Assembly (NCBI GenBank): GCA_003215295.1
Contig: QCKN01000001.1
Location: forward strand, 62,001 to 126,000
Length of the DNA: 64,000 nt
From: Prochlorococcus sp. AG-409-P03
GTDB taxonomy: Bacteria > Cyanobacteriota > Cyanobacteriia > PCC-6307 > Cyanobiaceae
Reading direction: 5' to 3'
A program made the translations under genes and the position numbers. This document shows positions 42,790-47,148 of this stretch, in pieces (within the stretch, counting starts at the first letter, position 1; the number at the start of each line of letters is the position of its first letter). Under the pieces are notes generated by a model. It did no database searches, was not told the origin of the DNA, and worked only from the letters and a program-made list of their open reading frames with translations.

Positions 42790-43035
42790 ATGTATTACAG
42801 AGTGCTTTTTGTCATGGCTGCTGATTCTTTGTACATCTCTAGTGCTTCTCGTATCATCTTGCCTCGTGCAACTTTCCGTTGCTTAATTTCTGAACTTCAA
42901 CGTATTAGAGCTATAAAATTTGGGATATTTTTGGGACTGGTTACTTTTGCAATTGCAGTAGCTCCGGAAAGACCTGAGCAGTTGGCGTCAATATGCGAAA
43001 AACATCATTCTGTTGATGCATGCAGAGTGTGGTGA
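42790..43035 (+). CDS. Small hypothetical protein with conserved-looking cysteine tail
   Basis: Reading frame of up to 81 residues ending in ICEKHHSVDACRVW, a tail with two cysteines that I associate with small picocyanobacterial proteins; a hydrophobic stretch (IFLGLVTFAIAVA) precedes it, consistent with a signal peptide or membrane anchor. The most upstream ATG is only eight bases from the divergent epimerase start, so a later ATG at 42814 or another internal start may be the real one. Five bases separate its stop from the HNH gene. Function unknown. Confidence 0.55.
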   Translation: MYYRVLFVMAADSLYISSASRIILPRATFRCLISELQRIRAIKFGIFLGLVTFAIAVAPERPEQLASICEKHHSVDACRVW

Positions 43036-43040
43036 ACTTT

Positions 43041-43451
43041 TTACGCAGCTTGTAAAAATAAGTCTTTCCCAAAGGATTTTGTATCCTCTTGGTTTGGAGT
43101 TATTTGGTTGGGTTGGGCCCATTGAAGTAAACGAAGTGCTAGACGAAGATCGCCATCTACCCAGGCTCGGAGTGCCATTGCACGACGTGGATCATAAAAA
43201 CGTTGACGTCTATACCAATCAAAAGCTTCAGCATCGGATTTGTGTCCATTGCAAGAAAGACATGCTGGAACACAATTCTCGGTAACACTTAATCCGCCTA
43301 GACTTCGCGGGTGAATATGATCAATCGACTCAGAAGGCTTTCCACAATATATACAACTTTGGCCGGTAAATGTATGGATTGATTTGCGCCATCTTTTTAT
43401 ACGTGATTTAGGGCATAGATCTTCGAGGAAAACCGCATCCCGATTTTGCAT
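43041..43451 (-). CDS. HNH endonuclease
   Basis: Single-domain nuclease of 136 residues. The core is CIYCGKPSESIDHIHPRSLG followed by an asparagine (LSVTENCVPACLSCN), so both zinc-binding CxxC pairs and the H-N-H catalytic residues are present, and the gene looks intact. The C-terminus is basic and helical. It lies 179 bp from, and divergent to, the HARP-SNF2 helicase gene. A nuclease acting with that helicase is an inference based on the eukaryotic protein ZRANB3, where the same domains are fused. It could equally be a remnant homing-type HNH protein. Confidence 0.88.
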   Translation of the reverse strand: MQNRDAVFLEDLCPKSRIKRWRKSIHTFTGQSCIYCGKPSESIDHIHPRSLGGLSVTENCVPACLSCNGHKSDAEAFDWYRRQRFYDPRRAMALRAWVDGDLRLALRLLQWAQPNQITPNQEDTKSFGKDLFLQAA

Positions 43452-43630
43452 CCGAGTTCATCGGTTACGGGCAGTGTGCCGTGATAGTTGAGCTCGTCAA
43501 TATCTCATTCAGCTTATCTTTTGACTTTTTAAAAGCTTTTGTTGCTAGATAGAGCTATTGCAATTTTTTTTGTTTTAAGTTCGGTTTACTTTCAAGATTA
43601 CGTACGTTCTCCACGTCCCACTCATTACCA

Positions 43631-45232
43631 TTGTGCTTACTTGGCTTGAGTCCTGCTGGGCTAGTAACAGTTTCGTTCCCGTTTGACGCTGTGACTCAAG
43701 CTCAGCTCCGCAAGGTTAGGCCTCGCGGTTCTTGGGATGTAGCTAGTAAAACTTGGTATTTCCCCTTTTCAGCATTTGAAATATTGCAGAAACAATTAGG
43801 TAAGCGTTTTGCAATTCACGAGGAACTTTCTCAATGGGTGACTTGGTTTAGAGACCCACTGCCTTCTTTGCCTTCTTATAAAGAAATAATTGCTTCTAGT
43901 GACTTTGATCAAGTTGATGATATCCGCAAGCCTTTGCCTCATCAAAAGGTAGGAGCTTGTTGGTTGCTGCAACGTCGAGGAGCAATTCTTGCTGATGAGA
44001 TGGGTTTAGGGAAAACACTGACTGCTCTTTTGGCTGCGAGAGCAATGGTTGGTGCGAGATTTATGAAAGTCATAGTTGTTGCTCCAGTTTCTTTACATTC
44101 CCATTGGTATCGAGAAGCTAGTTCTCTTCGATTACAGATTGATCTTCAAAGCTGGTCAAGACTTCCTAAGGAACTGCCTTCATGTGGAGCCTTGTTAATT
44201 GTTGATGAGGCACATTTTGCACAGTCTTTGAAGGCAAAAAGAACGCAATCTTTATTGCGCTTGGCTCGTCATCCACGATTGCGGGCCATTTGGATGATTT
44301 CAGGAACTCCTATGAAGAATGGCCGACCTAAAGAGTTATATCCACTCTTGGCTGCTATTGGCCATCCTTTAGGAATTGATAAAGGACGATTTGAGGCTGA
44401 TTTCTGTAGATGTCATTTTACAGATTTGAATAAGAAACTTAGTTTGAGATCTTCGGAAACTAATACTTTATATAAACTGCATCGCTTAATTAAGCCTGTG
44501 ATGTTGCACCGCTCTAAACAAGAATTATTAGATTTACCATTAAATTCTCGTAAGGAACATTTGGTTCATTTAACAGATCTAGAGCAGCGTGGTTTTGATC
44601 ATAGATTGTCATTAGTGCTTGAAGACTATAGAGAACGTGTTCAACAGGGACTAGTTAGCTCACAAGCTGAATCTCTTGTGACATTAAATTATTTGCGCCA
44701 AATTTCAACAGAGTTTAAGTTGCAGGCTGCTAGTAAACTCCTTAATCATTTTATCAATAAGCAACAAGGAATAGTTGTTTTCAGCAGCTTTATCAACCCA
44801 CTTTGCTTAATCAAAAAATATGTAGGTGGTGATTTGTTAACTGGATTACAGTCACCTAAGGAAAGAGATAAAGCGGTGCTTAGATTCCAACAAAGACAGT
44901 CTGATTTGTTATTAGCTACTTATGGATCTGGTGGCCTTGGTTTTACTTTGCATCGAGCCCGTCATGTTTTTCTCCTTGACCGCCCTTGGACTCCTGGAGA
45001 TGTTGCACAGGCAGAGGGGAGATGCCATCGAATTGGGATGCAGGACTCGATGACAAGCCATTGGTTCAAATTGGGCTTTGTAGATCAACTGGTAGATGGA
45101 ATTTTAACAAGTAAATCTGGCAATATTGAAGTACTTTTTGGATCTCGTAAAATCTTATTGAAGTGTGGAAATTTAAGTCTGATGCTAGATAAATGTGTGG
45201 AAGCTTTTGAGGATACGATTTCTAAAAGTTAA
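43631..45232 (+). CDS. HARP-like SNF2-family DNA-dependent ATPase
   Basis: Product of 533 residues. Residues about 12-70 (VSFPFDAVTQAQLRKVRPRG, then SWDVASKTWYFPF) resemble the HARP domain of SMARCAL1, which binds forked DNA. Next come SNF2 motifs: LADEMGLGKTLTALL (GKT 127-129), VVAPVSLHSHW, IVDEAHFAQ (192-195), SGTPMKNGRPKELYPLL, FSSFI, TYGSGGLGFTLH and the arginine-finger QAEGRCHRIGM. This combination marks an annealing helicase or fork-remodelling ATPase in eukaryotes; the bacterial function is not established. Start is a TTG at 43631, upstream of which the frame is not extended. No frameshift seen. Confidence 0.88.
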   Translation: MCLLGLSPAGLVTVSFPFDAVTQAQLRKVRPRGSWDVASKTWYFPFSAFEILQKQLGKRFAIHEELSQWVTWFRDPLPSLPSYKEIIASSDFDQVDDIRKPLPHQKVGACWLLQRRGAILADEMGLGKTLTALLAARAMVGARFMKVIVVAPVSLHSHWYREASSLRLQIDLQSWSRLPKELPSCGALLIVDEAHFAQSLKAKRTQSLLRLARHPRLRAIWMISGTPMKNGRPKELYPLLAAIGHPLGIDKGRFEADFCRCHFTDLNKKLSLRSSETNTLYKLHRLIKPVMLHRSKQELLDLPLNSRKEHLVHLTDLEQRGFDHRLSLVLEDYRERVQQGLVSSQAESLVTLNYLRQISTEFKLQAASKLLNHFINKQQGIVVFSSFINPLCLIKKYVGGDLLTGLQSPKERDKAVLRFQQRQSDLLLATYGSGGLGFTLHRARHVFLLDRPWTPGDVAQAEGRCHRIGMQDSMTSHWFKLGFVDQLVDGILTSKSGNIEVLFGSRKILLKCGNLSLMLDKCVEAFEDTISKS

Positions 45233-46920: not shown

Positions 46921-47148
46921 TTGACATCTTCTACCCTTGTGAGATCACCATCGGTAATTAGTGCGTCTCAAAGTAAACGTGATGCATGCTTAAAAGCAGC
47001 GGTTAACTTTTTTGATTCAGCCTCTGCACATGCTGAGGCTGGAAATTTGCAAGCCGCTGGAACTTTAATTCTTCAAGCTTTGGATCAAGAGAGGCGTGCA
47101 GGTGCAGTTGGGCCCCAGGTTTTGCAACTAATAAAACCTAGAAAATAG
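46921..47148 (+). CDS. Small hypothetical protein (75 residues)
   Basis: The frame opens with TTG at 46921 and encodes a helical protein: KRDACLKAAVNFFDSASAHA, then AGNLQAAGTLILQALDQER. The two helices resemble a helical hairpin such as a single TPR-like unit, with conserved-looking alanines. No function is known to me. A perfect palindrome and a TATAAT lie just upstream. I expect relatives in other marine picocyanobacteria, but this was not tested. Confidence 0.68.
   Translation: MTSSTLVRSPSVISASQSKRDACLKAAVNFFDSASAHAEAGNLQAAGTLILQALDQERRAGAVGPQVLQLIKPRK

Follow-up and report, generated by a model that had tools for sequence, protein, structure and literature searches.

We asked whether two divergent genes of a Prochlorococcus genome, one encoding an SNF2-family ATPase and the other an HNH endonuclease, work together as a split form of eukaryotic ZRANB3, as an earlier note on this DNA had proposed. 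The window, that is, the whole stretch of 64,000 nucleotides that was analyzed, comes from a Prochlorococcus-like assembly of 1.36 Mb in 47 contigs. We found no report of this SNF2-HNH gene pair in the open-access literature.

The HNH gene lies on the reverse strand (43041–43451), starts with ATG, and encodes 136 amino acids. The SNF2 gene lies on the forward strand (43631–45232) and encodes 533 amino acids when read from a TTG start, its frame being open from position 43553. Both open reading frames, their strands, and the 179-bp intergenic region between them (43452–43630) agree with the earlier description of an intact HNH gene divergent from the ATPase gene. Between the HNH gene and the SDR gene is a further ORF on the forward strand (42790–43035, 81 aa), probably a small protein; its C-terminal part (∼30–80 residues) is kept in all SNF2-less loci checked (L144–L150) and in L151.

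The SNF2 protein matches the Pfam profiles PF00176 (SNF2-rel_dom; E 7.9e-26) and PF00271 (Helicase_C; E 4.9e-13), both above cut-off. Walker A (motif I, DEMGLGKT, residues 122–129; 43994–44017, forward strand) is conserved in the SNF2 alignment, Walker B (motif II, DEAH, residues 192–195; 44204–44215, forward strand) is invariant, and the protein also carries SGTPMKN and motif VI, QAEGRCHRIGM (residues 460–470; 45008–45040, forward strand), with Arg-464 and Arg-467 intact. All helicase motifs are kept across a 32-sequence alignment, and motifs I–VI place the protein in the SNF2 family. The full set of motifs described previously therefore stands; the length of 533 residues assumes initiation at a TTG that relatives do not conserve. 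Residue 463 within motif VI (45017–45019) is Gly here and Asp (QAEDRCHRIG) in >90% of relatives. A single-sequence search of the PDB returned generic SNF2 remodellers. The same genome contains another SNF2 gene, a large one with an open frame of ∼1106 aa (G000:C1:130963-131823), ∼5 kb beyond the window end.

SMARCAL1 owes its annealing helicase activity to a HARP domain placed ahead of an SNF2 motor (PMC4035279). The earlier note placed a HARP-like segment at residues ∼12–70 and staked its proposal on a match to the HARP profile, and no such match was obtained: a PF07443 search at E ≤ 10 came back empty for the full-length SNF2 protein, for its first 80 residues, and for the genome, as it did at E ≤ 1 for each of 58 family N-termini. 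Likewise, a sequence search of the PDB with a profile of 58 N-terminal sequences and 104 positions retrieved no HARP chain. The fold gave a different picture from the Pfam profile. AlphaFold2, run on the first 105 residues with the 58-sequence alignment (pLDDT 89, pTM 0.70), predicts a β-β-α-β-β-α domain at residues ∼3–59 (43637–43807, forward strand). In a Foldseek search of 350,542 PDB chains with this model, two chains of 4O66 (SMARCAL1 HARP) ranked first and second, with probabilities of 0.72 and 0.69, E values of 0.39 and 0.47, and TM scores normalized to the target of 0.54 and 0.52; Mfd and XPB came behind 4O66 but within the top five. As these scores from one predicted structure are modest, we call the domain HARP-like and keep it out of the Pfam family; its likeness to HARP appears at the level of the predicted fold, and at ∼3–59 instead of the residues first proposed.

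The HNH protein belongs to the HNH endonuclease superfamily by its PF01844 match (E 5e-10), its conserved His and Asn, and its CxxC dyads. The core spans residues 33–71 (43239–43355, reverse strand), in which Cys-33/Cys-36, Asp-44/His-45, Asn-59, Cys-64/Cys-67, and Asn-68 are invariant in 58 aligned members. The best PDB match of the family profile was 4H9D (E 9.3e-9), accompanied by Cas9-like and IscB HNH domains, and none of the 38 matches at E ≤ 10 was a chain named ZRANB3. The predicted structure has a moderate pLDDT of 69, with a better core; its top Foldseek matches were Cas9 HNH domains, and the ZRANB3 HNH domain was absent from the top 50. The HNH domain of ZRANB3 contains a specific helical insert that is essential for nuclease activity (PMC5481773); judged against that description, there is no sign of such an insert in the picocyanobacterial protein, in which only 13 residues separate His-45 from Asn-59. 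A remote kinship may nevertheless hold, because 4H9D belongs to the pair of structures nearest to the ZRANB3 HNH domain (PMC5481773). One Prochlorococcus genus group, g18 (L152, L153; G017:C3, G094:C1), has a second HNH paralog, ∼60% identical and at another locus, with in-frame TAA codons in two genomes.

We then compared the two genes across 201 Cyanobiaceae genomes. SNF2 is present in 134 and HNH in 173, and 41 have HNH without SNF2. In all 110 mapped pairs, meaning genomes with listed positions for both genes, the two are adjacent and divergent, 83–295 bp apart. They sit within a conserved block (efp-accB-pdxA-SDR-HNH-SNF2-hyp-AbrB-AGT-cbiD-guaA), and their adjacency is conserved no better than adjacency with SDR and pdxA. 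SNF2-less Prochlorococcus keep the same block, with SNF2 missing. The only genomes found to have SNF2 but no HNH at the locus are G119 and G183, both partial: in the former, an SNF2 fragment lies at a contig start, and in the latter (L074, ∼55% complete), HNH and the intergenic region are missing and SNF2, with an altered N-terminus, abuts the SDR gene. This junction in G183 reflects either a genuine deletion or a chimera produced during assembly.

A tree of 85 loci, built from HNH, SDR, and pdxA, requires three changes of SNF2 state, at least two of them forced by well-supported branches. SNF2 is present in every basal Cyanobiaceae sampled, which together with the tree indicates that the changes are losses and not gains. 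SNF2 was thus lost two to three times in Prochlorococcus, with HNH staying in place. The gene would have been present in the Cyanobiaceae ancestor and passed on vertically at one fixed locus. The HNH catalytic residues are invariant in 58 SNF2-containing genomes and in 25 of 25 SNF2-less ones, and HNH divergence, expressed as a ratio to that of SDR and pdxA, is 0.566 with SNF2 and 0.582 without it. Because HNH is kept with its catalytic residues and under equal constraint after the loss of SNF2, we conclude that it is independent of SNF2. Co-occurrence of the two genes in related genomes, as expected by the earlier note, therefore holds in one direction within Cyanobiaceae, and a dependence of HNH on SNF2 does not; similarly, the argument that a streamlined genome keeps both genes is true of HNH, but several derived Prochlorococcus clades have dropped SNF2.

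Outside the family, we surveyed 242 genomes of the class with a completeness of 90% or more. SNF2 orthologs were confined to Cyanobiaceae, with the addition of a copy on a 63-kb plasmid of Synechococcus PCC 7502, and HNH gave only weak generic matches elsewhere; among these genomes, both families are essentially restricted to Cyanobiaceae. Plasmid relatives of SNF2 in Synechococcus PCC 7502, Nostoc PCC 7524, and Microcystis, annotated as DEAD/DEAH box helicases, share 34–37% identity over most of the protein, and in the Nostoc and Microcystis copies, the likeness covers most of the N-terminal domain. They differ in being plasmid-borne and in having a longer N-terminus and an ATG start (L143). 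No HNH neighbor was found beside the plasmid copies of Nostoc PCC 7524, Microcystis NIES-88, and Synechococcus PCC 7502. A cyanophage origin of SNF2 was considered and set aside, with a single distant phage match at 25.6% identity.

These data bear on three other readings of the locus. If the two proteins formed a complex at stalled forks, in which the motor hands branched DNA over to the nuclease, then the close and divergent arrangement of all mapped pairs, the HARP-like fold, and the rank of 4H9D among the HNH matches would all fit. However, HNH is retained just as strictly once SNF2 is gone, SDR and pdxA are equally faithful neighbors, the ZRANB3 nuclease is missing from both the profile and Foldseek matches, the helical insert is not apparent, and the plasmid relatives have no HNH gene. 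Motor and nuclease are neither one polypeptide nor an obligate pair here, given the genomes with HNH only. We consequently regard a split ZRANB3 as quite unlikely: its adjacency reduces to block synteny, and the proposed fork-remodelling pair is not supported, given the independent losses and the HNH-less plasmid copies. The near absence of SNF2 without HNH at the locus, limited to the two partial genomes, leaves room for a one-way partnership in which SNF2 needs HNH, for example by acting on HNH-made nicks, and HNH has a job of its own. The same asymmetry would arise if HNH were simply the more important gene, and block synteny already accounts for the adjacency, making this dependence unlikely.

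Iyer et al. (PMC2292703) described restriction-modification operons that combine SNF2 and HNH, and the locus could also be the remnant of a similar defense or restriction cassette. SNF2 matches the ZorD, DpdE, and DrmD profiles, HNH weakly matches PtuB and PDC-M01B, and one of the plasmid relatives of SNF2 lies beside type I restriction-like genes. These NCBIfam matches all fall far under their cut-offs (e.g. 85.5 versus 1200 bits), and the equivalog cut-off was not reached for any of the known systems Zorya, DISARM, and Dpd. Moreover, the two genes are divergent and do not form an operon, and they reside in a core housekeeping block with vertical inheritance and low turnover. A defense origin is thus very unlikely.

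The reading that we favor, with a probability of roughly 60%, is that SNF2 is a translocase whose HARP-like domain engages branched DNA, an ancestral and vertically inherited protein with the losses described above, and that the HNH endonuclease is independent of it. We infer the biochemical functions of both proteins, including branched-DNA binding and any annealing or fork-remodelling activity, from their sequences and models. The SNF2 protein would be a small ATP-driven double-stranded-DNA translocase, and its single N-terminal HARP-like domain may engage branched or junction DNA; such a protein would probably remodel stalled forks or other branched intermediates by annealing or branch migration, in the manner of SMARCAL1. 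Fork remodelling of the SMARCAL1 type would become accessible in a small and tractable model, a HARP-like bacterial SNF2 motor that goes back to the ancestor of the most abundant marine phototrophs, and the disposal of this motor in derived Prochlorococcus clades would offer a natural loss experiment. The persistence of HNH without SNF2 removes the attractive but poorly supported account of a split ZRANB3.

The SNF2 gene is odd in another respect: a recognizable start codon is missing from many of its relatives. Its conserved coding block starts at a Cys that is residue 2 of the 533-aa ORF. The window has a usable TTG at 43631 and, at codon −7 from the conserved Cys, an ACG (43613–43615, forward strand) that is a candidate non-canonical start. 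ATG, GTG, and TTG are absent up to codon +2 in 40 of 120 distinct SNF2 sequences (about a third; leaders L005–L237), a count that is not diagnostic alone, as some control families show the same, probably owing to an early-starting reference ORF. Up to codon +10, canonical starts are absent in 17 of the 120. The controls were the neighboring gene families of the locus. SDR, HNH, efp, accB, pdxA, AbrB, AGT, cbiD, and guaA have no sequence without a canonical start up to codon +10, and such a start is missing in 0 of 146 distinct HNH sequences. The exceptions among controls were one sequence of the 42790 ORF and 8 of 49 sequences of hyp46921 (window 46921–47148); over-extension of the reference ORF in the window may explain the hyp46921 cases.

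In 22 of 45 marine clusters, there is no ATG, GTG, or TTG between the upstream in-frame stop and the conserved Cys. Fourteen SNF2 sequences without canonical starts also lack CTG, ATT, ATC, and ATA, and 10 of these have ACG; four sequences (L065, L069, L074, and L159) have no candidate start at all. Among 121 distinct sequences, 28 have ACG at codon −7, and in marine SNF2, ACG occupies this codon in 25 of 65 cases versus 16 of 731 other leader codons, although the sequences are related and a p value would not be literal. ACG at −7 was not significantly commoner where canonical starts are missing than where they are present (14/31 versus 11/34, p = 0.32). At the same codon, the RCC307-like clade has ATG GCT AAG or TTG TCC AAG, and Prochlorococcus has ACG TCC AAA. 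The codon-position periodicity of column entropy sets in at codon −8/−7, with second positions constrained onward. Of 65 marine relatives, 22 carry a promoter-like element, TTGNNN-(15–18)-TAAAWT, upstream of SNF2 (against a mean of 0.6 and a maximum of 3 in shuffled sequences), and TAAAWT usually begins 28–33 nt before codon −7; no consensus promoter was found in the window's own HNH-SNF2 intergenic copy.

Together, the missing canonical starts, the ACG at −7, the periodicity, and the promoter-like element point to initiation near codon −7. We tentatively propose that the start is non-canonical, possibly ACG at −7 in many lineages and ATT, ATC, or CTG nearby in others, while rating this somewhat short of probable. 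Several other explanations were rejected. Internal starts at codons +2, +4, and +9 are absent in 17 sequences and would cut the first strand (residues 3–6) of the codon-constrained block. A programmed frameshift from the out-of-frame NTG over the Cys codon has no conserved shift site, and the NTG follows automatically from TGY. Sequencing error is contradicted by the finished genome of Synechococcus WH7803 (L167), whose SNF2 also lacks a canonical start and has ACG at codon −7 and ATT at codon −10, and all Rfam matches to an RNA element in the leader region were under gathering scores. We found no report of ACG initiation in cyanobacteria in the open-access literature. If correct, the proposal would mean conserved non-AUG/GUG/UUG initiation in free-living bacteria, and annotation pipelines that allow only the standard start codons would misplace the start of the SNF2 gene.

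Among known systems, ZRANB3 (AH2) resembles the locus in its SNF2 motor, HARP-like domain, and, encoded nearby in picocyanobacteria, an HNH protein with a C-x-x-C zinc dyad, but the picocyanobacterial SNF2 and HNH are separate genes that are lost independently. To our knowledge, the eukaryotic partners of the ZRANB3 PIP/APIM (PCNA) and NZF (ubiquitin) elements are absent in bacteria. The closest known relatives of the nuclease are the Geobacter HNH nicking endonuclease (4H9D) and the HNH domains of IscB/Cas9 and McrA. Unlike IscB and Cas9, it is a free-standing protein of 136 aa without RNA-guided architecture, and it differs from all of these in its strictly conserved C-terminal helical tail (FYDPRRAM...). 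SMARCAL1 differs from the picocyanobacterial SNF2, which is bacterial, 533 aa long, and without a PF07443 match, and is known here from sequence and model; because its HARP-like domain begins at about residue 3, it has no space for an N-terminal RPA-binding extension. What the two proteins would share, going by the predicted fold, is a single HARP-like domain directly before the SNF2 motor, the arrangement also found in invertebrate HARP (PMC4035279).
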